Position numbers and translations under genes: made by a program. Source: a virus. Taken from it: a stretch of DNA of 36,495 nt. This document shows, piece by piece, positions 50 through 33,775 of this stretch. Where the stretch lies: the IMG/VR virus record IMGVR_UViG_3300009093_000086, positions 1-36,495 of that record; one strand, written 5' to 3'. Below the pieces are notes generated by a model. The model saw only the letters and a program-made list of their open reading frames with translations, was not told where the DNA came from and did not search any database. Every line of letters begins with the position of its first letter. The first letter of the stretch is position 1.

Positions 50-123
50 GGGCGATTAGCTCAGTTGGCTAGAGCGCAGGTATCACACACCTGAGGTCAC
101 AGGTTCGAGCCCTGTATCGCCCA
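50..123 (+). tRNA. tRNA-Val, anticodon CAC
   Basis: The sequence folds as a full cloverleaf. The acceptor stem is GGGCGAT (50-56) with ATCGCCC (116-122) and discriminator A123. The D stem is GCTC/GAGC (59-62/72-75). The anticodon stem is CAGGT/ACCTG (77-81/89-93) with loop ATCACAC, which places anticodon CAC at 84-86 and reads GTG valine codons. The T stem is ACAGG/CCTGT with loop TTCGAGC. No CCA is encoded. The 3' half, starting at the first base of the anticodon loop, serves as the attachment site of the provirus and is repeated at 33686. The gene stays intact because the element supplied or matched its 3' end. Confidence 0.97.
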
Positions 124-154
124 TTTTCCTTAACTCATTTCAGGAACGCCGCTC
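82..154 (+). other. attL: left attachment site in tRNA-Val
   Basis: Bases 82-131 match 33686-33735 exactly (50 bp, constant offset 33604). After three mismatches among the next bases, 136-154 again matches 33740-33758. Identity begins exactly at the anticodon loop, a common crossover subsite for tyrosine recombinases that use tRNA genes. The integrase gene begins 85 bp further in. Confidence 0.93.
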
Positions 155-199
155 GTGACCGTGTTCGCGTTGGACATGGGATGGCTAATTTCCGCTGCC

Positions 200-239: not shown

Positions 240-1490
240 ATGCCCAAGCTCCTGCATCGGAATCCGGCATATCGAAAGCACCGTGCCTCTGGACAAGCGA
301 TCGTAACAATCGACGGACACGATCATTACCTTGGACCATATGGCACCCGCGCCAGCCGGGGTGAATATGACCGCGTCATCGCAGAATGGCTGGCCGCTGG
401 CCGCCATTCCCCTGTCCCGATCTCCGATTTGACAATCGCTGAGTTGATGGTTCTCTACCTCGAGCATTGCCGGACGTATTATCGCCGGCCCGACGGCACC
501 CCGACAAATGAAACGGATTGTATCATTCAGGCTTTGCGTCCGCTCAAAGAGCTATACAGCCGAACCCGCGCTGCCGACTTCGGACCGCTGGCGCTGAAAA
601 CCGTTCGCCAGCGGATGATCGAAAAGAATTGGGCGCGGACTCGCATCAATATGAACGTCGGGAGAATCAAACGATTCTTCCGATGGGCCACTGAAAACGA
701 AAAAGTGCCGGCATCGGTACTCCACGGCCTACAAGCGGTCCAAGGTCTTCGCGCCGGGCGATCGGAAGCTAAAGAATCTGAGCCAGTCACCGCCGTGGCG
801 GAAAGTTCCGTCGGCTCCGTGATCCCATTCATGCATAAGCCGATCGATAGCATGGTTCGGCTGCAGCTCCTGACCGGCATGCGGCCGGGCGAGATCTGCG
901 GCATGCGCGGATGCGATTTGGACACGACCGGCAGCCTCTGGCTCTATAAGCCTGGTGATCACAAGACTCGCCATCATGGCCATGAGAGGATCGTATATCT
1001 GGGCGCCAAGGCTCAGGCGCTGATCAATGATTTCCTAAAAACCGATCTGAATGCCTATCTCTTTTCGCCTTCTGAAGCTCAAGCTGATCGGCTGGAGGCT
1101 ATGCATGCAGCGCGCAGGACGCCTATCAGTTGCGGCAATCGGCCAGGCTCAAATCGGAAGCGCCGACCGAAGCGCCGACCCGGGGACCGCTATGAAGTCA
1201 CTGCATACAACCGGGCTGTGAGTCGCGCATGCGAGAAGGCGTTCCCACCGCCTGAAGACCTTGGTGCTGGCCTCGATGAAACTGAGAAAGAGGCCAAGCT
1301 CCGGGACTGGCGCGCGGCTCACCATTTCCACGTTCATCAACTAAGACATACCGCCGCGACGATGATGAGGAAATCGTGGGGCCTCGAAGCGGCTCAAGTG
1401 CTCCTTGGTCACCGTAACGTCCGCATCACGGAAACTTATGCGGAAAAAAATATTGAACTAGCCAAACGATTCATGTCGGAATTTGGATGA
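240..1490 (+). CDS. int: Tyrosine-family integrase
   Basis: This 416-residue tyrosine recombinase catalyses integration into the adjacent tRNA-Val and, with an excisionase, excision. Residues about 60-160 form the SAM-like core-binding domain. The catalytic domain shows Arg215 (TGMRPGE), a candidate Lys242, the HxxR box His366-Gln-Leu-Arg369, His391 (LLGHRN) and nucleophile Tyr400 (ITETYAEK). A basic insertion around residues 300-330 with GDRYEVTAYNRA before the HxxR box is typical of integrases I associate with planctomycetes. It starts 85 bp from attL and reads away from the tRNA. The ATG at 240 follows GGAG with short spacing. A decayed relative lies just outside attR. Confidence 0.95.
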   Translation: MPKLLHRNPAYRKHRASGQAIVTIDGHDHYLGPYGTRASRGEYDRVIAEWLAAGRHSPVPISDLTIAELMVLYLEHCRTYYRRPDGTPTNETDCIIQALRPLKELYSRTRAADFGPLALKTVRQRMIEKNWARTRINMNVGRIKRFFRWATENEKVPASVLHGLQAVQGLRAGRSEAKESEPVTAVAESSVGSVIPFMHKPIDSMVRLQLLTGMRPGEICGMRGCDLDTTGSLWLYKPGDHKTRHHGHERIVYLGAKAQALINDFLKTDLNAYLFSPSEAQADRLEAMHAARRTPISCGNRPGSNRKRRPKRRPGDRYEVTAYNRAVSRACEKAFPPPEDLGAGLDETEKEAKLRDWRAAHHFHVHQLRHTAATMMRKSWGLEAAQVLLGHRNVRITETYAEKNIELAKRFMSEFG

Positions 1491-2065: not shown

Positions 2066-2145
2066 TCGGTTCCCGATCGCCGCGACATTCCACGAACATG
2101 CTCCCCCTTTAGGCTGGCATTGACCGTTGCATCTCCGTCCTTATC

Positions 2146-2181: not shown

Positions 2182-2182
2182 A

Positions 2183-2560: not shown

Positions 2561-2687
2561 TTTTGCACTGCACCTCTTGGCGCAATCGCGCGCTCATTCT
2601 CTCCAAAAATCAGGCTCGTTCACTTTCATCCTGTCTATATACGCGACCGTTCGTCATTAACGGCGAACACTCGCAAAGGAGAAATAG

Positions 2688-2915
2688 ATGAGCGCGCCAG
2701 CTTCCGCAGTTTTGGACCCGGCCAACACACGATTCATCAAACTCAAAGAGTGGATGACAAGATGGGGCGTGTCGCGGACATATCTCTACGAACATCAGCG
2801 CGACGCCGGCTTCCCGAAAATTGTTCGTCTGGGCAAATGCGCCAGGGTGAGGATCGAAGAGATTGAAGCCTACGAGCGCACCCAGGCTGGTTTCACCGAT
2901 CAACCACGTCAATAA
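2688..2915 (+). CDS. AlpA/excisionase-like DNA-binding protein
   Basis: This 75-residue protein resembles the MerR-type helix-turn-helix fold of AlpA and excisionase proteins. Residues 17-60 read FIKLKEWMTRWGVSRTYLYE, then FPKIVRLGKCARVRIEEIEAYE, the usual 'choose helix, then wing with K/R' pattern. Such proteins bend DNA during excision or regulate early phage genes. The start is well supported by AAAGGAG seven bases upstream. It lies immediately before the replication gene and may control it. A second protein of this general type, DUF1580-like, sits at the other end of the element, so which one is the excisionase is open. Confidence 0.75.
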   Translation: MSAPASAVLDPANTRFIKLKEWMTRWGVSRTYLYEHQRDAGFPKIVRLGKCARVRIEEIEAYERTQAGFTDQPRQ

Positions 2916-2926
2916 AAACGCGCTGT

Positions 2927-5723: not shown

Positions 5724-5895
5724 GTTCCGACCTCACGTTTCCTTGGGCTGACTTCCCGGACTTGGTTCGCGCTCTCTACTCCGCGAGCATGCTCTCCATT
5801 TGATTCTACCGCGTCTGGCTTATTTGTCCGAGATGCACCGAGCAGCCTCAGTCTCGTCTAAAGCTCACCCCCACTCGACCGGCTTTGCGCTGTCG

Positions 5896-6453
5896 ATGAG
5901 TCGCGGCGTTGAAACGATGAGTAAGCGAAAGACCAATCTTCGGGAAATGACCGGTCGATGGTGGCTGATTCAGACCCGGCCGCAGTTTGAGCGACGATTC
6001 GCCACTGATCTTGAGCAGGCCAATGTTGACCACTTCCTGCCTCTGACCAAAGTTCGATGCACGCGGCAGGACCGCGGCAGGACTCGATCCATCGTGCAGG
6101 TCAAGCCGCTGTTCCCAACGTACCTGTTTGTGAATTTCCCGAAAGGTGATCGGCCAAGCGCCATCACCGCACGATCAATCGCCAATCCCAAGCTGATTAA
6201 CGTTGCCGATCAGCAGGGACTCGCGATGGACCTGGCCAATCTCCAAATCGCCCTTGACAGCGATAACACGCTAACCGCCCGCCCCACCATCCAGCATGGC
6301 CAACGCGTCCGAGTAATCGAAGGCGCATGCATGGGCATGGAAGGGGAAGCGGTCCGGCAGGACGATCACCACATCCGCATACAGCTATCTGTCTGCATGT
6401 TGGGCCAAGCAGTCGATGTAGATGTTCCCATTGAAAAGGTCGAAGCCTGCTGA
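5896..6453 (+). CDS. NusG/RfaH-like transcription elongation or antitermination factor
   Basis: This protein of about 185 residues (178 if ATG 5917 is used) has the NGN fold: RWWLIQTRPQFERRFATDL at the start, then VDHFLPLTKVRC, KPLFPTYLFVNF and an ISNP-like region ARSIANPKLINVAD. The C-terminal KOW segment reads IQHGQRVRVIEGACMGMEG. NusG paralogues bind RNA polymerase clamp helices and suppress pausing and termination. It is the first gene of a 20-kb late unit, the place held by Q antiterminators in lambda-like phages, so a late-gene antiterminator role is likely. The frame is open back to 5800, but the family match begins near residue 20. Confidence 0.8.
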   Translation: MSRGVETMSKRKTNLREMTGRWWLIQTRPQFERRFATDLEQANVDHFLPLTKVRCTRQDRGRTRSIVQVKPLFPTYLFVNFPKGDRPSAITARSIANPKLINVADQQGLAMDLANLQIALDSDNTLTARPTIQHGQRVRVIEGACMGMEGEAVRQDDHHIRIQLSVCMLGQAVDVDVPIEKVEAC

Positions 6454-6661: not shown

Positions 6662-7309
6662 ATGTCGAGTGTTTCCCCCAATACGCGAATTCAGCTCTCA
6701 GCCGCCTCAGGGCTGACCCTGTACGGCTTTGTGATTACGCCGATGGGAAGCTTGCCGGCATCTGATGCGTGGGCTAGCTCTGCGCTGGCGCTGCAGGAAA
6801 CAATCCCCAACAGCTCCGAGTATTTCGGCACGTTCCCCAATGAATCACAGGCCGGCCTCTATCTGCTACCGATTTTCGTTCAGAGCGGAGTCGCCCCAGC
6901 CAATACCGATTTGCAGCTTGGTGTGTGGCAGCCGCAAGCAACCGATGGAAACACACCGCCGCCATTGCCGTGCAATGGGGCCGTAACGCTGGCGATCGAC
7001 TGGGACACGACCTGCGGCATCCGAAGTTTGAGCAGGCTTGGCGCCGCACCAGGTGGGCCGCGTCCCGAAGTGTTACCGCAGCCTCAGAACAGCGCACTTA
7101 CCGCACAGCGGATCGTCTCAGAGCTCTACAAGGCGCGTGAGCAAATCGCGAGCGGCGGCAGCTTTGCCACGGTGAATATCGACGGCCAGGCGTTCAGCTA
7201 CACCAGCGTAGCGCAGCTCGATCAGACGATCCTGTTCTGGGAGCGAAAAGTTGCCCGCCTCACTGGGCGCCGCCCGCGCGTCACGACCCTACGCCTCGAC
7301 CGCTTCTAA
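6662..7309 (+). CDS. Neck protein with gpW-like C-terminal domain
   Basis: The last 75 or so of 215 residues match the lambda gpW head-completion family: QRIVSELYKAREQIASGGSF, then ATVNIDGQAFSYTSVAQLD and a closing helix LFWERKVARLTGRR. gpW closes the head channel below the portal. gpW alone is about 68 residues. Here about 135 extra residues precede it, rich in strands (RIQLSAASGLTLYGFVITP) and ending in a Pro-rich linker, of unknown role. The portal gene follows directly. The start at 6662 lacks a strong ribosome site. The function of the C-terminal part is fairly secure; the N-terminal domain is unassigned. Confidence 0.65.
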   Translation: MSSVSPNTRIQLSAASGLTLYGFVITPMGSLPASDAWASSALALQETIPNSSEYFGTFPNESQAGLYLLPIFVQSGVAPANTDLQLGVWQPQATDGNTPPPLPCNGAVTLAIDWDTTCGIRSLSRLGAAPGGPRPEVLPQPQNSALTAQRIVSELYKAREQIASGGSFATVNIDGQAFSYTSVAQLDQTILFWERKVARLTGRRPRVTTLRLDRF

Positions 7310-7322
7310 GCCATCAATCAAC

Positions 7323-8876
7323 GTGAGTCGATTACAAGCCATTAAAAACGGACTGCGAACGATGTTCGCACCGCTGCCGAAGTCGACACCCGGAAATAAG
7401 CCGGGCAGACAGGGCAACTATGAAGCGCCACCGCATGTTGGAATCGGCTATGACGCGATCAAGCGCCGTGGCCGCCGCGCTTCTCCGCCAGCGAACACGT
7501 TCTCAGAAGATCTGCAGTTGCGCGACTTGGCCCGCCGGCAGTTGCTAAGCAACCTGCGCGACCTCGACCGCAATTTCAGTTTGGCCGGCTGGATGGTCCG
7601 CCGCCACCTCGATTATGTCGCGACGTTCAATTTCCGCTCCAAGACGGGAATCAAGGACCTCGATGACGACATCAACCGCTTCCATCGCTGGTGGAGCCTG
7701 CCAAACAACTGTGATCCGGCCAGCCGTCACAGCTTGCAGGGTCTGACTCGCTTGTGGGAAGCGCGGCGCGTCCTCGATGGTGACATCCTTACCAACCGGC
7801 TGGCAGACGGGCGAGTGCAGACGATCGAAGGCGACCGAATCATGACGTTCGGGGGGCCAGCGATTCCATTCGATGAGTTGGGCATCAAGGATCCGGAAAA
7901 CGTCATCAACGGCGTGTATGTCAACCAGAACGGCCGGCCCAAGGCCTACATGGTGTTTAAGCGCCACCCGCTGTGGACGGGCTTGCGGTGGGATAAGGCA
8001 GTACCGGCGAAATTCGCTGACCTGCTTGGAACCTTTGGCCGCTATGACCAGGTGCGCGGCATCGCACAACTGGCCAGCGCCGCCAACTCGATGCGCGATG
8101 TTTATGAATCGCTCGATTATGCGGCCGTCAAGGGGAAGATCGCTCAGTTCTTTGCGTTGGCGGTTACGCGCGCTGCTTCTGATCGATACGAAGGGGAAGA
8201 GGAACGCGAGGGAGAAAGCAATCCCGACGCCGATCCAGACAAGCCACGCTATGACCTCGATATCAGCGGACCCGGCGCGATCGTTGATATGGACCCTGGC
8301 GACAAGATGGAGGTTATCGAGTCGAACACGCCCAGCACGGAATTTCAGGCCTTCACTAAACTCGAAATTGCACTCGCACTGAAGGCCCTCGACATCCCGT
8401 ATTCGTTTTTCGATGAGTCCAACGCCAACTACAGCAGCAGCCGCATGGCGGGGATGCAATACCTTGAAGCGTGCAAAGCACCGCAGCACGAGATTCGGCT
8501 TTTGTTGGACAAAATTACCCGCTGGCGACTGGGGCTTGCTGTGGTGGATGGGGATATCACCCTGCCGGGCAAAATGACCGTCCGCGATTTGCAGTTTGAA
8601 TACACCCACGCCGGCGCGCCGCTTTATGACCCGATGCGAGAGATCGGCGCCAGCGTCATCGCGATCAACGCGGGACTGTCCAGCGAAATTCGAGAAGCCA
8701 AAAAACTTGGCGTCGATGTATTCGAGCTGATCGACGAGCGAGCCGCCGTTAAGGAATACGCCAATAAGAAAGGCGTCATCCTATCCACCGCCCTGCCGTC
8801 CAACGCACTGTTGGATCCGAATAACGAGACCGCCCAAAAGCAGCACGCCAACGAGCAACAGAGCCAGAACAACTGA
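7323..8876 (+). CDS. Phage portal protein, lambda gpB type
   Basis: The protein has about 517 residues. It forms the dodecameric ring through which DNA enters the capsid and binds terminase and neck proteins. Family features include SNLRDLDRNFSLAGWMVRRH near the N-terminus, FHRWWSLPNNCD, SLQGLTRLWEARRVLDGDIL and an EGDRI segment, then a C-terminal SSSRMAGMQYLEACKAPQ helix. The length suits lambda-type portals (about 530). The frame is open to 7251, which would overlap the gpW-like gene. GTG 7323 lies 14 bases after that stop and ATG 7362 is another option. The acidic loop around EGEEEREGESNPDADPD is variable in portals. Confidence 0.9.
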   Translation: MSRLQAIKNGLRTMFAPLPKSTPGNKPGRQGNYEAPPHVGIGYDAIKRRGRRASPPANTFSEDLQLRDLARRQLLSNLRDLDRNFSLAGWMVRRHLDYVATFNFRSKTGIKDLDDDINRFHRWWSLPNNCDPASRHSLQGLTRLWEARRVLDGDILTNRLADGRVQTIEGDRIMTFGGPAIPFDELGIKDPENVINGVYVNQNGRPKAYMVFKRHPLWTGLRWDKAVPAKFADLLGTFGRYDQVRGIAQLASAANSMRDVYESLDYAAVKGKIAQFFALAVTRAASDRYEGEEEREGESNPDADPDKPRYDLDISGPGAIVDMDPGDKMEVIESNTPSTEFQAFTKLEIALALKALDIPYSFFDESNANYSSSRMAGMQYLEACKAPQHEIRLLLDKITRWRLGLAVVDGDITLPGKMTVRDLQFEYTHAGAPLYDPMREIGASVIAINAGLSSEIREAKKLGVDVFELIDERAAVKEYANKKGVILSTALPSNALLDPNNETAQKQHANEQQSQNN

Positions 8877-9163: not shown

Positions 9164-10735
9164 ATGGAAATGCAATCCTTTACCGCTGTCGCCGCGCTTT
9201 CACAGATCTTCTCTGATCGTGCGGTTCTCTTGTCCGAGGCGCACGCCAGGTCACTCTTGACCAAGGCCGCCCAGGCAATTCGCATCGGTGCGCACAAGGC
9301 AGAGAACAACAACGGCGATCCAGTCGACGGGGCCGGAGCCGTCGAAACCGTCAGTGAAATCGCGGTGATTCCTGTCAACGGGATCCTGACCAAAACCCCG
9401 ACGTGGGCAGATGAGTATTTTGGCCTTTGCCCCGCTTATGGCGTCATGGACCAATTGGCCAGCGCGATGGGCGACGGGAACGTGAAGGCCATTGTCCTCG
9501 ACATCGATACGCCCGGTGGATTCGTCAACGGAACTGTGGAGCTGGCCGACTACATCGCCACCGCCAGGGAAACCAAGCCAATTATGGCCGTGATCCGCGG
9601 CCTTTGCTGCTCCGGCGGTTATTGGCTCGCTTCGCAATGCACCAAGATCATCGCCAGGCCAGAATCCGAAGTGGGCAACATCGGTGTGTATTCCGTTCTC
9701 ACGGATGTATCGAAGTTCTACAGCGAAATCGGCATTGACCTCACCTTGATTGCTTCTGGCCAGTTCAAAGGGCTGGGGGCCGATGGCAAGGTGAGCGAGG
9801 ATTACGTTTCCGACACACGCCGCATCATCACCGGCCTCTATCAGCAATTCGTTTCAGCCGTGGCCAAAGGGCGCGGCCTTTCTCCCGAGGAAGCCCAGAC
9901 CGTTTCGGACGGCAAGGCCTATCTCGGTCCACAAGCATTGAAACTCGGTCTGATCGACGAGGTTGCGACATCGTTTGACGCAGCGATTCAGACCGTATCC
10001 ACCGCGGCGACCGCCGCAAAAAGGAGCTCGACCATGAGCAAGTCCGCAAGCACGGCGGTGAAAGCCGCGACCGAAGAAACCACCGGCACATCTGCCGACG
10101 ACCTCAAGTCCGAAATGAATTCCACCATCAGCAGCGCCAACGATCATAAGGATCAATCGCGAAAGATGCTGGATGCGTACACCGCCAAGACGGACGATCT
10201 TGACGACGACACCAAGTCGTTGGCCAAGCAGACGGTGACCGCGCTGCGCGCCGCCAGCGAAGAGGCCGAACGATGTGCCGATGCCATCGACGGCGATACT
10301 GACGACGATGAGGACGAAAACGATACGTCCGATACAGGCGAGGACCAGGGCGACGAAGAATCAGCCAATAAGGGCAAAGGGGGCAAGCCACAGGCCTTTA
10401 AGGCATCGGATTACATCGCCGCATTCGGCGACACCGGTGCGCGCTGGTTCTACGAAAGGAAGCCCTTTACCGTCGCAACCGCCGAGTACGTCACGCAACT
10501 GAAGGCTGAGCACAAGAGCCAGATCGACGCGCTGACTGCGGAGCGCGATTCTCTCAAGCAAAAGCTCGAGTCCATGGATCGTGGCAACGAGGCGGCCAGC
10601 TTTTCGGTCAGTGGCGCGGACCAAACCGCCGCCAAAGGCAAGCAGAAGCTCAATGGCATGACGCCGGGCGTACAGAGCTACGCCAACAGCATCAAGCTGC
10701 CGACCGCTCCACCCGCCTTGCCCGCCACCAAGTAA
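9164..10735 (+). CDS. S49/SppA-like prohead protease fused to scaffold (gpC-like)
   Basis: This 523-residue protein combines two head-assembly functions. Residues about 65-275 are an S49 ClpP-fold peptidase like lambda gpC. LDIDTPGG precedes catalytic Ser150 in GLCCSGGYW, and Lys202 lies in SGQFKGLG, giving the Ser-Lys dyad. It matures the prohead. Residues 291-523 are charged and coiled-coil-like (DDLDDDTKSLAKQTVTALRAA, then an Asp-rich run), ending in TAERDSLKQKLESM, typical of a scaffold. A strong internal ribosome site and in-frame ATG at 10034 indicate that the scaffold is also made separately. The capsid gene follows. Confidence 0.9.
   Translation: MEMQSFTAVAALSQIFSDRAVLLSEAHARSLLTKAAQAIRIGAHKAENNNGDPVDGAGAVETVSEIAVIPVNGILTKTPTWADEYFGLCPAYGVMDQLASAMGDGNVKAIVLDIDTPGGFVNGTVELADYIATARETKPIMAVIRGLCCSGGYWLASQCTKIIARPESEVGNIGVYSVLTDVSKFYSEIGIDLTLIASGQFKGLGADGKVSEDYVSDTRRIITGLYQQFVSAVAKGRGLSPEEAQTVSDGKAYLGPQALKLGLIDEVATSFDAAIQTVSTAATAAKRSSTMSKSASTAVKAATEETTGTSADDLKSEMNSTISSANDHKDQSRKMLDAYTAKTDDLDDDTKSLAKQTVTALRAASEEAERCADAIDGDTDDDEDENDTSDTGEDQGDEESANKGKGGKPQAFKASDYIAAFGDTGARWFYERKPFTVATAEYVTQLKAEHKSQIDALTAERDSLKQKLESMDRGNEAASFSVSGADQTAAKGKQKLNGMTPGVQSYANSIKLPTAPPALPATK
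10034..10735 (+). CDS. Nested scaffold protein from an internal start (Nu3-like)
   Basis: Inside the protease gene and in the same frame, AAAAAGGAG ends eight bases before ATG 10034, which encodes a 233-residue protein starting MSKSASTAVK. The product is the acidic, helical C-terminal half of the protease fusion. This reproduces the lambda C/Nu3 arrangement, in which the scaffold is translated from within the protease gene and removed by it. The ribosome site is better than that of the full-length gene at 9164. Expression is inferred from this site and from the analogy. Confidence 0.7.
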   Translation: MSKSASTAVKAATEETTGTSADDLKSEMNSTISSANDHKDQSRKMLDAYTAKTDDLDDDTKSLAKQTVTALRAASEEAERCADAIDGDTDDDEDENDTSDTGEDQGDEESANKGKGGKPQAFKASDYIAAFGDTGARWFYERKPFTVATAEYVTQLKAEHKSQIDALTAERDSLKQKLESMDRGNEAASFSVSGADQTAAKGKQKLNGMTPGVQSYANSIKLPTAPPALPATK

Positions 10736-10776
10736 CCCGACAGTCAACTGAATTGATTTGCCTCACGACGGGAACC

Positions 10777-10823
10777 GCGCTCGCGCTTCCAAGCTGCCAA
10801 ATGGCGATTAGAAGCGCGAGCGC
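10777..10823 (+). promoter_or_regulatory. Stable 13-bp hairpin before the capsid gene
   Basis: A perfect stem pairs 10777-10789 (GCGCTCGCGCTTC) with 10811-10823 (GAAGCGCGAGCGC) around a 21-base loop. No U run follows, so it is not an ordinary terminator. It lies in the 139-bp gap before the major capsid gene, upstream of AAAGGAG. It may mark an mRNA processing or stabilising point that raises capsid output. Confidence 0.5.
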
Positions 10824-10874
10824 CCGTCTAATTCCGCGAAGCAGTCTCTAATTCTGCAAAGGAGTCTCTGAACC

Positions 10875-11825
10875 ATGTTAACGATGCTCGATATCATCAA
10901 GCAGAACGGGGCCGATCCCGTGACAGGCTTGATCGACGAAACCGTACTGGCTCACCCAGAAATCACGAGCATCGCAGCTCGCACGATCAAGGGGGAGAAG
11001 TACAAGACCATGGTGCGCACCGCGCTGCCGGTCACCGGTTTCCGCAGTGCCAACCAGGGCATGGACCTCAACTCTTCGAAGTATGAAGAGCGAGAAGTGG
11101 AGACGTTCATCTACAACGCTCCGATCCAGGCCGACAAGGCTGTTGCGGACAAGAGTGAGGACGGTGCAACCGCTTTCATCGCGCGTGAAGCCAAGGGTGT
11201 TTTGGAATCCTGTTTCCAGACCCTCTCCCGATGCTTTTATTACGGCAGGAATGTGACGTACGGCGGCGACGCCAAGGCATATGGCGGGCTGCTGGATTTC
11301 TACGATCCGGTCAACTACGTCGTGGACGCCGGCGGGACCAGCGCTAACACCAGCACATCGGTCTGGGCCATCCGCACCGATCCGGAGCACGTGCAGTGGG
11401 TCATGGGCGTCGATGGTCAATTCCAGATCAGCGACCTCACGCTGCAGCGCGTGCTGGACAGCAACAACAAGCCTTACATGGCTTACTACCAGGAACTGCT
11501 GTCCTATCCCGGTGTGCAGCACGGCAGCGTCAGGGGTGTCAGCCGCATCAAGAAAATCACCAATGATGCGGGCCACACGCTCAATGACGACCTGTTGGCA
11601 CAGCTCGTGGCGCTTCACCCACTCAGCGATCAGCCCAACATGATCCTGATGAATCGCCGTGGCCGCGCTCAGCTCCAGCGCTCGCGCACTGTCACCTTGT
11701 TCGGCAACGCCGCCAACCAGGTGAATGGCATGATTGCCAACGTGGCGCCGCTGCCGACCGAGCACAACGGGATCCCGATCTTCGTCACGGACGGAATCTC
11801 CAACGTGGAATCACTCACGCTGTAA
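10875..11825 (+). CDS. Major capsid protein
   Basis: The 316-residue protein sits directly after protease and scaffold, where capsid genes normally lie, and fits the HK97 fold in size. It has ANQGMDLNSSKYEEREVETF (the extended-loop region), TAFIAREAKGVLESCFQTLS (spine helix), SVWAIRTDPEHVQWVMG, and a C-terminal NDDLLAQLVALHPLSDQPNM followed by MNRRGRAQLQRSRTVT, a pattern seen in a subgroup of siphovirus capsid proteins. The start has AAAGGAG 11 bases upstream. The gene is preceded by a strong hairpin. It probably assembles into the icosahedral shell with the small proteins downstream as decoration. Confidence 0.85.
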   Translation: MLTMLDIIKQNGADPVTGLIDETVLAHPEITSIAARTIKGEKYKTMVRTALPVTGFRSANQGMDLNSSKYEEREVETFIYNAPIQADKAVADKSEDGATAFIAREAKGVLESCFQTLSRCFYYGRNVTYGGDAKAYGGLLDFYDPVNYVVDAGGTSANTSTSVWAIRTDPEHVQWVMGVDGQFQISDLTLQRVLDSNNKPYMAYYQELLSYPGVQHGSVRGVSRIKKITNDAGHTLNDDLLAQLVALHPLSDQPNMILMNRRGRAQLQRSRTVTLFGNAANQVNGMIANVAPLPTEHNGIPIFVTDGISNVESLTL

Positions 11826-11893
11826 TTCCCGGCCGCCAAATCGTGGCCGTTCAACCGCGTTTCCCGCTCCCGCAACAATCAACGGAGTTTCCG

Positions 11894-12175
11894 ATGTCCG
11901 CACCCAGCGTGAAAAAGGGCAGCAAAGTGAATTTGGTTCTGGCCAATGGTGAGCGCGCCGAGGCCAAAATCATTTCGGATGGTGCCGACGACGCCGGCCG
12001 CGTCGACCTCTCGGTGGCAAAGCACCCAAAGCACGGTGATTTCACCATCACCCGCGCTCCGCACGATCCGACGGGAGCCAAGGCCGATTCGTGGCATCTT
12101 CCGAACAAGGCGCCCGCCCAGGAGGCCGCCGCAACGACGTGCGAAACCCCTGCCGACCCAGATCAAGAAAAATAA
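11894..12175 (+). CDS. Small head-associated protein
   Basis: This 93-residue protein from ATG 11894 is preceded by GGAG. The frame is open to 11843, but that would leave no ribosome site. The first 60 residues read like a small beta barrel (KKGSKVNLVLANGERAEAKI, then GRVDLSVAKHPKHGDFTITR). The tail is Ala/Pro-rich and acidic. Position right after the capsid suggests a head decoration or head-fibre base, or a folding factor. I do not recognise a named family. Confidence 0.6.
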   Translation: MSAPSVKKGSKVNLVLANGERAEAKIISDGADDAGRVDLSVAKHPKHGDFTITRAPHDPTGAKADSWHLPNKAPAQEAAATTCETPADPDQEK

Positions 12176-15835: not shown

Positions 15836-17869
15836 ATGTCATCCCAAGCCATTCGAGCCGGCGGCGCATTCGTCGAAATCTTTGCCGACGATTCAAAACT
15901 CATGCGCTCGCTGGCCAAGAACCAGGTTGCCTTGAAGAAATGGGGCAAGACTGCATCGGCCGCCGGTACCAAGCTCATTGCCGCCGGAACGGCGATGCTC
16001 GCCCCCTTGCTGGCGGCCACGCGGGCCTATGCGTCTATGGGAGCCGAGATGGCGCGTGGTGCACAAAAAACCGGTATGGCCGTCGAGTCGCTGTCGCAAC
16101 TCAAATATGCCGCCAATCAGAGCGGCGTGGAGTTCGAAAAGCTCGAGACCGGCATCGCTAGGATGAATCGATCGATACTCAATGCCGCACAGGGCAGCCA
16201 GCAATCGCAGGAAGCCTTTGCCCATTTGGGCCTGTCGGTCGCTCAGCTTTCGCGCATGAAGCCCGAGGAACAATTCCGCGCGATCGCCGAGGCTCTGTCG
16301 AAGATCAAAAACCCCACGCTCCGCAGCGGGCTTGTGCAGCAGATCTTTGGACGCAGCGGCACAGAGCTATTGCCATTGCTCAACCAGGGAGCCGCCGGCA
16401 TCGACAAGATGATGAAGCGCGCCGATGAACTGGGCTTGACCATGAGCACCAGCGCAGCAAACGGGGCGCTGGCGTTCGACCAAAAGCTCAATGACCTGTG
16501 GCAAGTGGTCAAAATGGGCGTGTTCCAGATCGGCGGCGCGCTTGCCCCGGTGCTCGATACGGTCACCGGTTACATGATCAAGGGCATCGGCGTGGTGCGC
16601 GATTTCATCAGCCAGCACCAGGGCCTGATCATCGCCGCGGCCGGATCTGGCGCTGCACTACTCGCTGGCGGAATAATTCTTAAAGGCGTTGGCGCGGTGC
16701 TCAGCATCGCGTCGGGAGCTGTCGGCATCTTCAGCACCGGGCTGGCCATTGCCGGTGCCGTGATGGGTGCCGCGCTGTCGCCACTGGGGCTTATGACGGT
16801 CGGGCTGCTGGGCGGCGCCGCTGCATTCCTGTATCTCACGAAGGCCGGTGCAGCCACGCGAGAGTACCTGTCGGGTGTATTTAGCGACCTGCGCGACGAG
16901 ACCGTGACAGCCTTCCAAGGCATCCGCAATGCCATGGCCGCCGGCGATTGGGGCCTGGCTGCAAAAATCCTCTGGACCTACGTCAAGCTCGAATCGCTCA
17001 AGGGCAAGACTTTCCTGCGCTCGACATGGATCAGCATCAAAGCGGAGACATTGGACATTTGGTCCAGCACCGTCGAAGGCATCGAAAAGCTCTGGTCCTA
17101 TGCCAAGGAATATCTGTCCAACTGGGATGGTGTGCGGACAGCGATAACGAAGGTCACCAATTGGTTCAAATCCACTTGGGAAAACGTCATCGACTACGTT
17201 GCCGACAAGTTTGCCAATCTCATGATCGAGCGCGACTTCGCCAAGCGCGAGAAGGAGATCAGAGCTCAGGGCAAACGACGTGGATTGTCTGAGACCGACA
17301 TTCAAAAGCAGGTGGACGACGAACGGAAGTTTCAACTTCAGCAGCGGGATTCAAATCGCGCCGATAGGGACCGGCAGAAGGAAGCTGAATACAACGCAAA
17401 GCAGCGCGCTGCAGATGATGCCTACAAGGCCGCACATCCCGAGCTCGTTCAGCAGGAAGAAGCCGCTCGCAAACGCATTGAGGATGAGCAGAAGGCCCGC
17501 CGCGGTGCCAATGACGATGAAGCCGCGAAGGCACGTCAGGACGCGATCGACCAGGCATCACAGGAGCTTTCCGATCTGAAGAAGCAGCTCGCGGCCGGCG
17601 CCCAGCAGGCCCAGGCCGAAGCCGGCAAGAGCCGCACATTCAATACACCAACGTTCGATCAGAACGCCGCCGCCGATGGGCTTGAAGGGATGATGAAGTC
17701 CACCGTCGCCGGCACCTTCAGTGCCGCGGGCGCTTTTGGTCTGGGCAGCGGCAATACAACCGAGCGCATCGCCAAGGCGACTGAGAAAACCGCCCAATTC
17801 GTCGAGATGATTCTGAAAGAGGGCAAAGGCGGCGCGAAAAGTGCCGCTGGCCTCAGCTTTGGGAGTTAG
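15836..17869 (+). CDS. Tail tape-measure protein
   Basis: At 677 residues this is one of the longest structural proteins of the late unit. It opens with a tape-measure pattern: SKLMRSLAKNQVALKKWGKT, ARGAQKTGMAVESLSQLKYA, FAHLGLSVAQLSRM, and KNPTLRSGLVQQIFGRSG. A hydrophobic Gly/Ala-rich block lies at about 262-340 (LIIAAAGSGAALLAGGIILK onward), as in tape-measure proteins that insert into membranes on DNA delivery. A charged coiled coil spans 455-600. By the usual rule of about 0.15 nm per residue, the tail would be near 100 nm. It follows the chaperones, as expected. Confidence 0.88.
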   Translation: MSSQAIRAGGAFVEIFADDSKLMRSLAKNQVALKKWGKTASAAGTKLIAAGTAMLAPLLAATRAYASMGAEMARGAQKTGMAVESLSQLKYAANQSGVEFEKLETGIARMNRSILNAAQGSQQSQEAFAHLGLSVAQLSRMKPEEQFRAIAEALSKIKNPTLRSGLVQQIFGRSGTELLPLLNQGAAGIDKMMKRADELGLTMSTSAANGALAFDQKLNDLWQVVKMGVFQIGGALAPVLDTVTGYMIKGIGVVRDFISQHQGLIIAAAGSGAALLAGGIILKGVGAVLSIASGAVGIFSTGLAIAGAVMGAALSPLGLMTVGLLGGAAAFLYLTKAGAATREYLSGVFSDLRDETVTAFQGIRNAMAAGDWGLAAKILWTYVKLESLKGKTFLRSTWISIKAETLDIWSSTVEGIEKLWSYAKEYLSNWDGVRTAITKVTNWFKSTWENVIDYVADKFANLMIERDFAKREKEIRAQGKRRGLSETDIQKQVDDERKFQLQQRDSNRADRDRQKEAEYNAKQRAADDAYKAAHPELVQQEEAARKRIEDEQKARRGANDDEAAKARQDAIDQASQELSDLKKQLAAGAQQAQAEAGKSRTFNTPTFDQNAAADGLEGMMKSTVAGTFSAAGAFGLGSGNTTERIAKATEKTAQFVEMILKEGKGGAKSAAGLSFGS

Positions 17870-19862: not shown

Positions 19863-20173
19863 AAAAGTCCACCGCACTAGCCATCGCCGCGCTGTCGCCC
19901 GAGCAGGTCAATCAGGTATTCAACTGGATCGTTGCCGGTGGTTCCGAGCACGATATTACCGAAGCGATTGCCCTGAATTATGAAGGCGCGCAGCCCAAAC
20001 CCCTGATCGTGGCAGCGATGCAGCGCATCGCAAAATCGGCCGACGCAGAACCGGACGTCATTCGTGGCTGGTGCATCGAAGCGACCCGACACGTCTACCA
20101 GAGAGCAATCGAGCTTGGCGACTTGGCCACGGCGCTAAGAGCCGTCAAGCAGCTTCATTCCATGGCGACATGA
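19859..20173 (+). CDS. Probable small terminase subunit
   Basis: This 104-residue helical protein overlaps the PLD-like stop (ATGA) and the start of the large terminase. It contains a helix-turn-helix-like stretch, SPEQVNQVFNWIVAGGSEHD followed by ITEAIALNYEG, which resembles the DNA-binding end of small terminases and other phage HTH proteins. Small subunits recognise the packaging site and load the large subunit. The assignment rests on position and fold pattern. Confidence 0.6.
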   Translation: MKKSTALAIAALSPEQVNQVFNWIVAGGSEHDITEAIALNYEGAQPKPLIVAAMQRIAKSADAEPDVIRGWCIEATRHVYQRAIELGDLATALRAVKQLHSMAT

Positions 20174-22224
20174 TGTTCTCCGTCAAAACCAAGCGAGGAC
20201 AGAAGGAACGGCAGCGCAAAGCCGCCTACGCCGCTAAAAGAGCGCGGGGAATTCGCGACGTAGCGGATTCTCGGCCAGATTGTGCCGATCCCGACCGCCG
20301 CGCCGCTGCTCAAGACCTCGAGTGCTTTTTGCGTACCTATCTGCCTCGCACTTTCAACCTGCCATGGTCGGCAGATCATCGGACGGTCATTCAAAAGCTC
20401 GAAACCGTGATGCACGAAGGCGGCCAGTCCGCCTATGCTATGCCCCGCGGCAGTGGCAAGACTTCGATCGTCGAAGGTGCGGTGCTGTTTGCCATCCTGC
20501 ATGGTTTGCGTCGTTTTGTGTCTCTGATTGGAAGTGAAGAAACAGCGGCGGTAGAGATGCTCAAGAGCATTAAAACCGAGCTCGAGACCAACGATCTGCT
20601 GGACGAGGACTTTCACTTCACATGCGGACCCATCCGCGCGCTGGAAGGCATCTCAAATCGGTGTAACGGGCAGCTTTGGAACGCAAAGCGGACGCGAATT
20701 GTTTGGACAGAGAAAAGAATCGTTCTGCCTACCGTCGATGGGAGCCTGTCCAGTGGCATCGTTCTTGATGTAGCTGGCCTCACAGGTCGGATCCGCGGCA
20801 GGAAAGCCAAGCTCGCAAATGGCCAGTCGATTCGCCCAGATCTGGCGTTGCTGGACGATCCACAGACCGATGAATCGGCGCGCAGTCCATCCCAGGTTGC
20901 CCAGCGCGAACGGCTCGTAACCGGTGCCGTGTTGGGGCTCGCAGGGCCCGGCAAAAAGATAGCGGCTGTGATGCCATGCACCGTCATCGCGCCCGATGAC
21001 TTGGCCGATCGGATGCTCAACCGGAAGAAGCACCCGGAGTGGCAAGGCGAGCGGGCCAAGCTCATGAAGAGCATGCCGACCGATACCCAGATGTGGGATC
21101 AATACGCGCAGCTCCGCGCCGACAGCTTGCGCGCTGGCAACAAGGGCCAGGAGGCCACGGAGTTTTATCGAGCCAATCGAGAGGCGATGGACGCGGGCGC
21201 TGAGCCATCATGGCCAGCCCGATTCAACCATGATGAGCTCTCCGCGATTCAGCACGCAATGAATTTGCGGATTGACCACGGCGAAGCAGTATTTGCCGCG
21301 GAGTATCAGAACGAGCCCCTTGCCGAGCAGCTTGGCGAGCAGCAACTAACCGCCGATGAAATCTGCGCCAAGGTGAACAACCTTGAGCGCCGGGCCGTTC
21401 CAATCGGCTGCGAACACATCACATGCTTTATCGATGTGCAAGGCAGCATCCTCTTTTATCTTGTCGCAGCGTGGGCCGACGGATTCACGGGATACATCAT
21501 CGACCGCGGCACTTATCCAGATCAGAAGCGCGACTATTTCACGCTGAACGATATCCAGTACACTCTTGCAAAAGAATTCCCAGGTGGGGAAGAGGCACAG
21601 ATTTACGCGGGACTCGGCAAACTTACCGATCAGCTTTTGGGACGGACGTGGTTGCGCAATGACACCGAAATGAAAATCGGCAAGTTGTTAATCGACGCGG
21701 GCTATAAGACCGACACCATCTACCAATTCTGCCGCCAGTCGAAGCACGCCGCTATCGTGATGCCGAGCCACGGCCGCTACGTCGGTGCCAGCGGGACGCC
21801 ATGGGAACAGTTTAAAGCCGCCCCAGGTGAGAAGATCGGCCATCACTGGCTTACCAAGCCGAGCGAACGGGGAATCAGGCATATCGCGTACGACACTAAC
21901 TTTTTCAAATCGTTCGTCCAAGGGCGCCTGCGCGTGCCCATGGGCGATAAAAGTTGCCTGTCTCTTTTTGGAAAAGCGCCGGCAGCCCATCGAATGCTTG
22001 CCGACCACTTCGCCGCAGAATATGGCGTGAAGACCGAAGGACGCGGCCGAACCGTCATCGAGTTTAAATGCCTGCCCGGCCGTGACAATCACTACTTCGA
22101 CTGCATGGTAGGAGCCACCGCCGCCGCATCGTTGCTTGGCGTGACACTCGACACCGACAAGCCCCTGAAGTCCAAACCCATCCGACGCAGGTATCCACGA
22201 GTCAGCCAGATGAAGGGCTGGTGA
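20170..22224 (+). CDS. Terminase large subunit, gpA-like
   Basis: The 684-residue DNA-packaging motor has Walker A at residues 92-99 (PRGSGKTS) and Walker B with acidic residues LLDDPQTDE (227-235). After the ATPase domain, HITCFIDVQG (Asp422) opens an RNase-H-like nuclease domain, and GRDNHYFDCMVGATAAASLL lies near the C-terminus, as in lambda gpA-type terminases, which suggests cos packaging. An upstream in-frame start (20071) lies inside the small-subunit gene; ATG 20170 overlaps its stop and fits better. The gene lies after the tail genes, not before the portal, which is unusual for a phage of this type. Confidence 0.9.
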   Translation: MMFSVKTKRGQKERQRKAAYAAKRARGIRDVADSRPDCADPDRRAAAQDLECFLRTYLPRTFNLPWSADHRTVIQKLETVMHEGGQSAYAMPRGSGKTSIVEGAVLFAILHGLRRFVSLIGSEETAAVEMLKSIKTELETNDLLDEDFHFTCGPIRALEGISNRCNGQLWNAKRTRIVWTEKRIVLPTVDGSLSSGIVLDVAGLTGRIRGRKAKLANGQSIRPDLALLDDPQTDESARSPSQVAQRERLVTGAVLGLAGPGKKIAAVMPCTVIAPDDLADRMLNRKKHPEWQGERAKLMKSMPTDTQMWDQYAQLRADSLRAGNKGQEATEFYRANREAMDAGAEPSWPARFNHDELSAIQHAMNLRIDHGEAVFAAEYQNEPLAEQLGEQQLTADEICAKVNNLERRAVPIGCEHITCFIDVQGSILFYLVAAWADGFTGYIIDRGTYPDQKRDYFTLNDIQYTLAKEFPGGEEAQIYAGLGKLTDQLLGRTWLRNDTEMKIGKLLIDAGYKTDTIYQFCRQSKHAAIVMPSHGRYVGASGTPWEQFKAAPGEKIGHHWLTKPSERGIRHIAYDTNFFKSFVQGRLRVPMGDKSCLSLFGKAPAAHRMLADHFAAEYGVKTEGRGRTVIEFKCLPGRDNHYFDCMVGATAAASLLGVTLDTDKPLKSKPIRRRYPRVSQMKGW

Positions 22225-22227
22225 TCA

Positions 22228-23208
22228 ATGCCCGGCGATGTGATGAAAACCGTCGCGAACGGTTCGCCCGTTCGACCCTCAGCCCAGTGGCAGAACCGCG
22301 CAAACCGAGCCATCAAAAAGAGCGAGGCAGATGGAAACTCGCTGAGTGCTGGCCAGCCCGGCGTCCGCCAGCCACTCATCACGATCTATGTCCAGAACAA
22401 CAGCGGAGAGGACCGCAAACGCTTCGAAGTTTTGGGGATCGACGGAATTTTGTATGGGCCGGACGACAACAAGGCAGAGTTTGAGAACAACGCAGCTCTC
22501 ACCGGTGTGACACCGGTCGAAAGTCAGCATTTCGGCAACTTCGTTATCTGCGCCGAGCCTATCGCCGATGGCGCCGTTGGCCGCGCTTGGATCATTGGCG
22601 TTTGTTCAGTCCAGATCGATATTCAGAACGTCGGTGATGGATTTGCCGACGTGGAGGATAACGAGCCTGGCCAGCTCAAGAGCGGGCAGCAAGGTGCCGC
22701 ACAGATCCTATGGACCGAGAACGACGAAAACGGGACAGACGACACCGGCATTATGTGGGCGCTGGTGAGATTGACCGGGCCCGGCCCGCTCATCTGCATC
22801 ACCGCGGAACTTACCGGCAAATCGGGCACGCGCTACAGCTGGGAGCAAGCCGCGCCGGACAGTGGCACGGGCGCATGGAGTGTGGTCACCGACGGCAAGA
22901 CCGGATCATTTACAGACAAGCCCGCGATCGATCTCGACGCGTCCGATACCACCGATCTTACGGGTAAATTTGTCGCGCTTGTCCCAGTCACCGGCAGTGA
23001 CGGAAAACTCTGCTATGTCATCGCGGGCGGGCCCGGCGCTGGCGGCGGCATCACCAATGAATTCACCGTGCTCACCAACTTCGTGATCAGTGGAACAACC
23101 GTAGTTGCTTCGACACTGACTGTGACCGTTACGAATGGCCGCATCACCGCCATTGCCGAAGGCGATGAGATCGACCTGGCGGGCAAAGACTGCACTGGCC
23201 TTACCTGA
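22228..23208 (+). CDS. Virion structural protein, unknown family
   Basis: The 326-residue protein starts three bases after the terminase stop. It contains LITIYVQNNSGEDRKRFEVL, GIDGILYGPDDNKAEFENN, and TPVESQHFGNFVICAEPIAD, a pattern I associate with proteins in other planctomycete proviruses. The second half is Gly/Thr-rich with short strands (SDTTDLTGKFVALVPVTGSD) and ends in a beta-solenoid-like stretch. It may be a tail-fibre or baseplate protein. No enzyme motif is visible. Confidence 0.55.
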   Translation: MPGDVMKTVANGSPVRPSAQWQNRANRAIKKSEADGNSLSAGQPGVRQPLITIYVQNNSGEDRKRFEVLGIDGILYGPDDNKAEFENNAALTGVTPVESQHFGNFVICAEPIADGAVGRAWIIGVCSVQIDIQNVGDGFADVEDNEPGQLKSGQQGAAQILWTENDENGTDDTGIMWALVRLTGPGPLICITAELTGKSGTRYSWEQAAPDSGTGAWSVVTDGKTGSFTDKPAIDLDASDTTDLTGKFVALVPVTGSDGKLCYVIAGGPGAGGGITNEFTVLTNFVISGTTVVASTLTVTVTNGRITAIAEGDEIDLAGKDCTGLT

Positions 23209-23219: not shown

Positions 23220-24020
23220 ATGGCATTCAAACTTGCGTTCTCCGGTGGGAAGCTGGTCTTTAAAGACGGCGTTCTTGGGATGACAGAGGCGGCCGATACG
23301 AACGGTTTGTGTTATTGCTGCTCCTGTCCCCCAACCATCAATTGCCTCTATCCGGACGGTTCCCCACAGACCTGTTCCAACGGCAAGAACATCGCGTTGC
23401 CGAGCTTTCTAAAAGTGAGCTTGAGCGGAATTGTCGTGCAGGCATGCGTGACAAACTTTCCAGATTGGGCTTCGATCAATGATGGTTGCACATGCCCGCG
23501 CGCCTCTGGCGCTGGAACATGTGGCGCTTCCTACCAATGGTATAACACGGATTTGGATTTCTCGGATTTAACGCCCAATCCGATCAACGATTCACCTTGC
23601 AACTACACGATTGACTTCGATTATAGAACGCCGGGAACCATCGCCATGGCGCTGGGGGATAAATGCTGCACAATCCAGGACGAAGGTATCTTCCCGGTCG
23701 GCTTTAGCTGGCGGGCATCATACGACGCATCAACCCAACTTCTGACGGTCATCGTAATTGCCGGTGACCACGCAGAGACGACCCAAGTCGGTGGGACGAT
23801 TGATGTCATTCCGATTTTCTTTGCCGGTAGGGCAACCGTCCCTTGTGGCACATGGAAGCCGACAGACGTTATCACCATCACCAACTCGCTGACTGTCGGA
23901 CAGGAAATCACCAGCGGGTGGCCTTTGGCCGGCGGTGGCGTGGAACTGTGGGCCATGGCCAGCGGCGGGACTTGCACAATTCAATGTCTCAAAAACGACC
24001 CCGGAACTTATGCCCCTTGA
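23220..24020 (+). CDS. Cys-rich structural protein
   Basis: This 266-residue protein contains about 16 cysteines, including CYCCSC (31-36), CTCP, KCC and CTIQC near the C-terminus. That density is rare in cytoplasmic virion proteins. The rest is strand-rich, with FKLAFSGGKLVFKDGVLGM at the start. GGGGG precedes the ATG. It overlaps the next gene, whose product carries an ERV/ALR thiol-oxidase domain. The pairing suggests disulfide bonds in this protein, perhaps a fibre or adhesin. No signal peptide is present, so the oxidase would need to act without export. Confidence 0.55.
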   Translation: MAFKLAFSGGKLVFKDGVLGMTEAADTNGLCYCCSCPPTINCLYPDGSPQTCSNGKNIALPSFLKVSLSGIVVQACVTNFPDWASINDGCTCPRASGAGTCGASYQWYNTDLDFSDLTPNPINDSPCNYTIDFDYRTPGTIAMALGDKCCTIQDEGIFPVGFSWRASYDASTQLLTVIVIAGDHAETTQVGGTIDVIPIFFAGRATVPCGTWKPTDVITITNSLTVGQEITSGWPLAGGGVELWAMASGGTCTIQCLKNDPGTYAP

Positions 24021-26124
24021 ACTTCGCCAACGTCAGATGATTTGCTGGAAGTGCGCCCAGCGCGACCGCACAAGCCCCAACCGCGATTCATGCAGGGCCG
24101 GCGGCTTGTCCAGCGAGCATGCGCAGAAAGATACTTGCCCGCTTGGCTTGCATGTTCCACCACCGCCGCCAGCGCCGGAACTGGTGTGGAATCACATCAA
24201 GGGGCCGTGGAAAAGATTAAAAGTATATTGGGCGCAATACCCGGAAGTGCAGGCAGTATATCGCCGGGCCATGGCCGACGCCGCCAACGCGATTCCAGCC
24301 TACCACGACGACGCCCAGGGCCGCGGCATTCTGATTTGCGGGGGCGGATCTTATGCTTTCTCCGCGCTGATAACGCTGGCCATGATCCGACACACCGGCT
24401 GTACGTTGCCGGTTGAGATTTGGGGATTCGATGCCAGCGAGTTTCCCGACTGGTTTGCGCAGGAAACAGCGAAGCTTGGCGCCACGCTCCATCGAGCAGA
24501 CGAATTTTATTCAATCGATCCGGTGCGCGGCATCTATGACCGCGACAAGGGCTGGACGCTCAAAGCCTACGCCATCCTTCATTCCCGCTTCCGCGAGATT
24601 CTTTACCTTGACGCCGACTCTTACCCCGTCCGCGATCCGTCTGACTTGTTTGAGCGCCCCGAGTATATAGAGCACGGCGCGATCTTCTGGCCCGACACCC
24701 CAGACACCGGCGGGACCGACTTCCCCGAATCAGTGTGGCAGACGATCGGCATCACGCCCAGGTCGGAGCCGGAGTTTGAGGCCGGCCAATTCATCATCGA
24801 TAAGGCGCGCTGCTGGACGGCGCTGCGCCTCTTGAACTGGATGAACCAGCACAGCGACTTTTACTATTGGTTCGATCGGCAACACGCCTACGGAGATAAA
24901 TCGGTCACACATTTAGCTTGGCGATATTTGGGCATGGATTATGGAATGCCCGCGAAGCGCCCCGATTATCTTGAACCCGCGATGGTTCAGTACGACTTTG
25001 CCGACAAGCCCATTTTCGTTCACCGAGTCAAAGGAAAATTCACGCCGATCGAGAGTCTCGACCAATACGCAGTTTTCAAAACGACGCACCAATTGCCCGA
25101 CCGATACAACTCCGCTCTACCACTTGAGGAAGTGGCTTGGGAGATTGAAGGGCGATATCTGCCGCTGGTGCCCAAGCCCGAGCCGAAAAAGAAAGTAGTC
25201 CTGCCGCCCTCATCATCGTGGGGAACAGCGCTCTGGGATATGCTTCACCGCCGGCCGATCAGTTGCGACGACTTGGCCAGGGAGAAAACTTGGCTCAGGT
25301 TGTTTGCCCGAAAGATTCCGTGCGGCGACTGCCAGGGGCATTGGAATAAGATCGTTGAGGCGCACCCGCCCGACCTTTCCAGCCACTTCGCTTATGCCCA
25401 CTGGACGCACGATCGGCAAAACGATGTGAATACCAGCATCGGCAAACCGATTAAGAACTGGTTTGACGCCGCGATGGAGCGCGAGTGGTGGAAGGTCACA
25501 GATGGGATGCCCACGCGCCTTGCGATTGCCACGCTTTGGACCGAAAGCATTGTTGACGTTACACGCATCACCTTGCCCACCAAGCGCCGCTATGCCGTCA
25601 AATGGGGCTTGCCCTACATCGAGCACTATGGCGTGATCCGATTGGAACGCCCGCCGGCATGGAGCAAGCTGTCGCTGCTGATCAACCACTTGCCGAAATA
25701 TGACTGGATTTTCTGGACGGACGCCGATGCTCTGTTTATGCAGGATCAAACCGACCTGCGCGACATGCTGGACGACAGCGCGGACCTGATTTGGACTGAG
25801 GACCACAACGGGCCGAACACCGGTGCATTTTACATCCGAAATACGCCAGCCAGCATCGACCTGTTGACGCGAGCGGATGCGCTATTCAATCAGCTTTCAC
25901 AGACCGACCGCCAGGGACGTTTCCGGGGCTTGTGGGAACAAGGAGCCATCCGCTATGTGATTGAGGAACAGCTTGCGGCCGTGAAGGTCAAGACGCTGCC
26001 GAAGCGATCTATCAACGCCTACGAAGTGGACTACGAAACCGGGGACTTGATTGTGCATTTCCCGGCACACGACAAGATGGAACGCATTAAGAAATTTCTT
26101 GATGCCCGCGCAGCCGCTGCCTAA
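24010..26124 (+). CDS. Fusion: GT71-like glycosyltransferase, ERV/ALR thiol oxidase, GT34-like glycosyltransferase
   Basis: The 704-residue protein has four parts. Residues 12-43 hold a Cys cluster (C12-x2-C15-x12-C28-x14-C43). Residues about 100-350 resemble MNN1-type mannosyltransferases, with GILICGGG (106-113) and D201-A-D203 in ILYLDADSYP. Residues about 400-485 match ERV/ALR FAD-dependent sulfhydryl oxidases: W404-GTALW, C438-GDC-441 in KIPCGDCQGHW, and H467/N471/VN474 in HDRQNDVNTSIGKP. Residues about 510-690 resemble GMA12/MNN10-type transferases, with D571-A-D573 in WIFWTDADALF. No signal or membrane segment is seen. The usual second structural Cys pair of ERV proteins is absent; the N-terminal CxxC might be the shuttle. 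Confidence 0.75.
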   Translation: MPLELRQRQMICWKCAQRDRTSPNRDSCRAGGLSSEHAQKDTCPLGLHVPPPPPAPELVWNHIKGPWKRLKVYWAQYPEVQAVYRRAMADAANAIPAYHDDAQGRGILICGGGSYAFSALITLAMIRHTGCTLPVEIWGFDASEFPDWFAQETAKLGATLHRADEFYSIDPVRGIYDRDKGWTLKAYAILHSRFREILYLDADSYPVRDPSDLFERPEYIEHGAIFWPDTPDTGGTDFPESVWQTIGITPRSEPEFEAGQFIIDKARCWTALRLLNWMNQHSDFYYWFDRQHAYGDKSVTHLAWRYLGMDYGMPAKRPDYLEPAMVQYDFADKPIFVHRVKGKFTPIESLDQYAVFKTTHQLPDRYNSALPLEEVAWEIEGRYLPLVPKPEPKKKVVLPPSSSWGTALWDMLHRRPISCDDLAREKTWLRLFARKIPCGDCQGHWNKIVEAHPPDLSSHFAYAHWTHDRQNDVNTSIGKPIKNWFDAAMEREWWKVTDGMPTRLAIATLWTESIVDVTRITLPTKRRYAVKWGLPYIEHYGVIRLERPPAWSKLSLLINHLPKYDWIFWTDADALFMQDQTDLRDMLDDSADLIWTEDHNGPNTGAFYIRNTPASIDLLTRADALFNQLSQTDRQGRFRGLWEQGAIRYVIEEQLAAVKVKTLPKRSINAYEVDYETGDLIVHFPAHDKMERIKKFLDARAAAA

Positions 26125-27102: not shown

Positions 27103-27298
27103 GTTTATGCGCGCACACGCCGGTTGCCTCATCGTGATCCCGCCGAGCCCAATCATCGAAACGCTGGTCATCAGTCACCAGAGCGAAGCTGTACCGCCCG
27201 GTCCGAGGCGAGGCGCCAATCATCGAAGGCTCGCGGAACTGCACAACAAGAATCCCCAGGATTTGAGAAAAGCCATCAGCGCGTCTAATGCTCCATGA
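27044..27298 (+). CDS. Small protein between sigma-like and exported protein genes
   Basis: The 84-residue frame starts inside the end of the sigma-like gene and ends in an ATGA overlap with the start of the next gene. Both overlaps suit coupled translation and are the main support. The sequence has a short helix (TEWFAQQGSIRPRHSAIEFM), a hydrophobic strand (CLIVIPPSPIIETLVIS) and a basic end. The family is unknown. Confidence 0.4.
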   Translation: MLTEWFAQQGSIRPRHSAIEFMRAHAGCLIVIPPSPIIETLVISHQSEAVPPGPRRGANHRRLAELHNKNPQDLRKAISASNAP

Positions 27299-33685: not shown

Positions 33686-33758
33686 ATCACACACCTGAGG
33701 TCACAGGTTCGAGCCCTGTATCGCCCATTTTCCTTCAGACATTTCAGGAACGCCGCTC
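33686..33758 (+). other. attR: right attachment site
   Basis: Bases 33686-33735 equal 82-131 exactly; 33740-33758 equal 136-154. Only the 3' half of the tRNA is present, so this is not a tRNA gene. The match beyond the tRNA sequence suggests that the host flank here already came from a related element. Confidence 0.92.
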
Positions 33759-33775
33759 CAGACCCGAGTTCGTGA

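Follow-up and report, generated by a model that had tools for sequence, protein, structure and literature searches.

ERV enzymes pass electrons from substrate cysteines, often via a second, shuttle cysteine pair, to a CxxC motif, from there to FAD and finally to oxygen. In bacteria, oxidative folding is assigned to the periplasm. The late proteins of phages are synthesized in the cytosol, out of reach of the Dsb enzymes, and a cysteine-rich virion part would therefore need an oxidase of its own. For large DNA viruses, PMC10598087 describes virus-encoded ERV enzymes that serve virion disulfides, and it counts Pirellula as one of the few bacterial groups that possess members of the family. A phage ERV protein was not reported in the literature searched. 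Here, we describe such a protein, encoded in a 36,495-nt stretch of virus DNA (positions 1 to 36,495 of IMG/VR record IMGVR_UViG_3300009093_000086, hereafter the window).

The window holds the prophage of a temperate tailed phage, as a sequence-only reading of this DNA had already proposed. The prophage spans 33.6 kb and is bounded by 79-nt att repeats associated with a tRNA-Val gene, the integration site (50..123); the left repeat (82..160) shares its first 50 nt with the right one (33686..33764), past which lie host-like genes, a hydrolase and an arabinofuranosidase. On the plus strand, as are all window features with coordinates given as features here, it encodes a tyrosine integrase (240..1490), a portal protein (7251..8876, start codon provisional), a head maturation protease (9164..10735), a major head protein (10875..11825), a tape measure protein (15836..17869) and the large terminase subunit (20170..22224). 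We infer that the virus was integrated in a planctomycete-type bacterium, because the relatives of its terminase in genomes are mostly from Planctomycetota. The large terminase gene is placed downstream of the genes for the tape measure and the tail and not first in the structural operon, and a NusG-like gene (5800-6453) is found where the late region begins. Behind the late genes, 27295-30027 encodes a 910-aa protein whose N terminus resembles a signal peptide and for which no Pfam or PHROG match was found. A partial terminase 95% identical to that of the window is present on contig IMGVR_UViG_3300013104_000131 (L076), which ends before the ERV region. Downstream of the terminase follow a 326-aa late protein (22228..23208), which has no family match and parts of which resemble ORFs in other planctomycete phage loci, a cysteine-rich late protein of 266 aa with 16 Cys (23220..24020), and the ERV gene.

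The ERV gene is a reading frame open throughout (24010..26124) that encodes 704 aa, in which an N-terminal cysteine cluster (C12, C15, C28 and C43; 24043..24138) precedes a GT71-type (Mannosyl_trans3) domain (residues ~104-345; 24319..25044), an ERV/ALR domain (residues ~402-490; 25213..25479) and a GT34-type domain (residues ~500-692; 25507..26085). Its start codon is uncertain, the candidates being ATG 24010, ATG 24037 and GTG 23935, and no clear Shine-Dalgarno sequence was seen at any of them. Judged by the Pfam curated cut-offs, all three domains were recognized, namely PF11051 (Mannosyl_trans3, GT71) with 3e-24 and 86.2 bits (cut-off 22), PF05637 (Glyco_transf_34) with 2e-15 and 57.5 bits (cut-off 23), and PF04777 (Evr1_Alr) with 5e-9 and 36.9 bits (cut-off 27.6). 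When searched alone, the ERV part reached 42.8 bits against PF04777, and the GT71 and GT34 parts likewise scored higher. Among solved structures, the ERV part matched yeast Erv2 (1e-7), the viral ERV protein 3gwl (1e-6) and ALR, and the GT34 part weakly matched xyloglucan xylosyltransferases. The three domains named from the sequence alone, including the placement of the middle one within ERV/ALR, are thus borne out by profile and structure matches. PHROGs and NCBIfam searches assigned the 704-aa protein to no family, its Pfam matches with E values of up to 1 included no thioredoxin family, and neither a signal peptide nor a membrane helix was noticed upon inspection by eye. From shallow alignments of window and related-locus sequences, AlphaFold modelled the full protein with low confidence and the ERV domain, likewise with low confidence, as helical with a mean pLDDT of 44. 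The GT34 part alone gave a usable model, and a fold search with it returned 6bsu, a xyloglucan xylosyltransferase, as the best match (3e-8) and 2p73, the PBCV-1 capsid glycosyltransferase, as the second.

The single relative found for the whole protein, 85% identical, is encoded by the phage IMGVR_UViG_3300010373_001375 (L002), and comparison of the two refines the motif assignments. Both DxD motifs pointed out in the sequence-only reading are in place, ILYLDADS with DAD at residues 201-203 (24610-24618) in the GT71-type domain and WTDADALF with DAD at residues 571-573 (25720-25728) in the GT34-type domain, as are W404 and the CxxC motif C438-G-D-C441 (25321-25332), the latter being the same in L002. 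Among the further ERV residues that had been named, N471 and V-N474 stand and H467 does not. The motif in solved ERV domains such as Erv2 and ALR is W-x(4)-H-N-x-V-N and the window protein reads W465-THDR-Q470-N471-D-V-N474 (Q470 to N474, 25417-25431), so that the canonical His corresponds to Gln470, while the neighbouring H467 aligns with a cysteine of Erv2 and ALR. The L002 protein retains H-N-D-V-N at this site. The N-terminal cysteine cluster, which had also been recognized before, is kept in L002, together with C419. This cluster could represent either shuttle cysteines or a metal site, and C12/C15, C28, C43 and C419 are candidates for the shuttle pair.

The L002 phage and the window share a collinear stretch that runs from the tape measure gene through the end of the ERV fusion gene, and the fusion protein is under purifying selection in this pair, with a dN/dS of 0.13 overall and of 0.07, 0.20 and 0.22 for the GT71, ERV and GT34 parts, respectively. 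Scans of viral contigs with these three parts and a diverse ERV alignment recovered the whole protein in L002 only, and nothing was found when genome contigs were scanned with the full-length fusion-protein pair. GT71 alone was detected in a related phage, directly after a tail-region gene, and in a few planctomycete genomes, and GT34 alone in L004 (a 430-kb contig), L005 and the 484-kb phage record LR756508. The two transferases, each found alone in phages, are therefore phage-carried parts, and ERV is the rare part. The sequence-only reading could not place the combination in any described system; its transferase domains are less isolated than had been supposed there. In Planctomycetota, GT71-like genes (L180 4752-10768; L181 1379-7360) adjoin genes for Ser-rich low-complexity, heptosyltransferase-like and FkbM-/radical-SAM-like proteins, with two GT71-like stretches in one 915-aa ORF in L181, and such loci may serve protein glycosylation.

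ERV genes recur in the family Pirellulaceae and are located in prophages wherever their context is clear. A tblastn search of 50,697 phage records with the ERV parts gave chance matches only or none, and plasmids gave no match of note. Genomes were sampled rather than exhaustively searched: PF04777 had no match in 392 Planctomycetota genomes sampled evenly, and within Pirellulaceae it matched in 7 of 241 genomes, four of these above the cut-off, which agrees with the statement on Pirellula in PMC10598087. True ERV loci according to PF04777 are those in G483 (two), G549 (three), G574, G488 and G496. A profile built from true Pirellulaceae ERVs (A5) revealed two further loci, in G564 and G549, and gave no match in 372 genomes sampled evenly across the phylum. 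The PF04777 matches in G052 and G527 were judged false, and the weak ERV matches L171 and L190 were discarded by eye as large dehydrogenase-type proteins. As the A5 profile matches solved ERV domains down to 6e-15, and QSOX weakly, we regard the Pirellulaceae genes as ERV homologues; as single proteins, L200 and L201 narrowly miss the Pfam cut-off, L205 misses it by a wide margin, and L209 gives no Pfam match at all. The contigs that carry the ERV loci of G483 and G549 measure 8.4 and 6.5 Mb, which makes eukaryotic contamination unlikely there.

Each of the 12 ERV loci (the window, L002 and ten from Pirellulaceae genomes, about nine lineages in total) has a cysteine-rich gene directly upstream of the ERV gene and on the same strand, in most cases overlapping it. 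In the window, the overlap with the gene for the 266-aa protein is 11 nt, given the start at ATG 24010; all 16 cysteines of this protein are kept in L002, the dN/dS of the gene is 0.08, and its position suggests that the product is probably a virion component. The upstream partners contain 11 to 24 Cys in 222 to 560 residues. The pairing was noticed on the window together with the eight Pirellulaceae loci known at first, and it also held for both loci that were found afterwards. Ranked by cysteine fraction among local ORFs of at least 150 aa, the upstream gene came first in ten of the 11 scored loci and second in the remaining one. The product of the rank fractions, with one locus taken for each of nine lineages, is ~3e-10, a hand-worked figure that is rough because the pattern was first seen on most of the same loci. 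In 159 related-phage loci that lack ERV, only 12 of 1725 ORFs passed a comparable threshold for cysteine content, among them several that plainly do not encode virion proteins. Partners of different lineages showed no clear similarity to each other in phmmer searches, and, within the reach of this method, a functional link between ERV and the cysteine-rich protein therefore appears more likely than the spread of a single gene pair.

We consider it rather probable that the ERV domain is a phage FAD thiol oxidase and that the cysteine-rich protein encoded directly upstream is its substrate. The 704-aa protein would then supply the enzyme in a late module that planctomycete phages encode with two genes. 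Acting in the host cytosol, as the lack of an evident signal peptide suggests, the ERV domain would oxidise cysteine pairs of its partner, from which the electrons would go to oxygen, and the fused GT71 and GT34 domains would transfer sugars to the same protein or to neighbouring late proteins. Glycosylation of the partner is the part against which it counts that several ERV genes come without any transferase. The wider proposal is that tailed phages of Planctomycetota own a cytosolic disulfide pathway, in which an ERV enzyme is dedicated to one cysteine-rich virion protein and, in some lineages, is fused to transferases that decorate this protein; here, we see the chances as evenly balanced.

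The anatomy of the ERV modules varies across lineages. ERV is fused to GT71 and GT34 in the window and L002 and to GT2 in L194 and L195 (a fusion seen in G483), the ERV protein of L199 has an unassigned C-terminal part that is GT-A-like by eye, and a fusion partner is missing in L196, L197, L198, L200, L201 and L209. At L205 1354-2676 (L210 9068-10387), ERV is combined with a weak phosphoribosyltransferase/HAD_SAK_2 part, again behind a cysteine-rich gene. The redox motif varies as well: CxC replaces CxxC in L199 (5347-6372), L200 (8617-9249) and L209 (1477-1905), and H-N-x-V-N has decayed in L200 and L209. These CxC copies, together with Gln470 of the window protein, leave room for a loss of activity in some copies and would also be expected if the ERV domain were no longer an oxidase at all, having degenerated into a helical module for binding the partner or keeping the transferases in place, with glycosylation as the main activity. 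We regard this explanation as unlikely, as the window protein and L002 have kept CGDC, the L194-L198 and L201 types also have CxxC, and the partners are cysteine-rich in every case, for which a binding module would have no need.

The location of the ERV modules bears on a second explanation, host conversion, in which the lysogen would have its surface glycans or its envelope proteins altered and the ERV domain would stabilise that machinery. Phage transferases often change host surfaces, and planctomycete GT71-like genes are found near heptosyltransferase-like and Ser-rich genes, both of which would fit such a role. However, the ERV fusion gene is part of the late structural region, where it overlaps the cysteine-rich gene, and nearly all other ERV loci are likewise situated among head or tail genes, with portal, tape measure and integrase genes among the neighbours. 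In L194, L195 and L201 the ERV module sits between the portal and the major head gene, and in L196, L197, L198, L210 and L211 it follows the tape measure and tail genes. The prophage context is weaker in L200 and in L199, which has a serine integrase nearby. The ERV pair of L199, from G574, is flanked by a YD-repeat-like large ORF (4-3960) and this integrase (10548-12134). Given also that inspection by eye gave no sign of export or membrane anchoring, host conversion seems quite unlikely to us. The sequence-only reading had envisaged glycosylation and disulfide bonding of virion or cell-surface proteins; the idea of virion-protein disulfides gains strong context from the cysteine-rich gene upstream in 12 of 12 loci, and modification of the cell surface is less favoured because the gene sits in the late structural region.

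That the partners instead bind metal, with the ERV protein aiding metal loading or redox control and not forming disulfides, would agree with the N-terminal CC, CxC and CxxC clusters of several partners and with the N termini of four ERV lineages (zinc-ribbon-like in G483, G488 and G496, with more loosely clustered cysteines in the window type), but is very improbable, as cysteines are distributed over the full length of most partners and an oxidase next to a thiolate metal protein would counteract it. If disulfide formation by a dedicated phage oxidase is the correct reading, some phages, like giant viruses, use the cytosol to build parts that disulfides stabilise, and the giant-virus pathway for virion disulfides has a parallel in bacteriophages. 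The gene pair would then also be a small, naturally occurring module for making disulfides in the cytosol. The findings bear on the spread of ERV enzymes among eukaryotes, large viruses and bacteria, and they provide a search rule for further cases, namely to inspect the genes behind cysteine-rich late genes.

Compared with described systems, the phage ERV domain is homologous over its length to Erv1, Erv2, ALR and 3gwl of eukaryotes and nucleocytoplasmic large DNA viruses, with which it has the CxxC, the W and N-x-V-N in common. It differs from known ERV/ALR proteins in being encoded by a tailed bacteriophage, in its position between two glycosyltransferases, in its tie to one upstream gene, and, in the window protein, in the Gln that stands for the motif His and the absence of Cys at the W-x-C position. 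ERV enzymes of large DNA viruses are also virus-encoded and serve virion disulfides, according to PMC10598087. QSOX likewise contains an ERV part among several domains, and the ERV profile matches it weakly; in contrast to this thioredoxin-ERV fusion, the phage protein has transferases in place of a thioredoxin match. Its transferase domains exceed the Pfam cut-offs for the GT71 (MNN1-type) and GT34 (MNN10/GMA12, xyloglucan xylosyltransferase) families and carry DxD-type motifs, yet they belong to a predicted cytosolic phage protein without a Golgi anchor and are joined to ERV. The PBCV-1 enzyme 2p73, to which the phage GT34 model has a fold match, is a viral transferase for a virion protein, but it is an algal-virus enzyme without an ERV domain, and glycosylation by the phage protein is predicted. 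The bacterial ERVs of Pirellula and few other groups treated in PMC10598087 belong to the same Pfam family as the Pirellulaceae members described here, and the available part of that paper draws no link between them and prophages, cysteine-rich neighbours or transferases.
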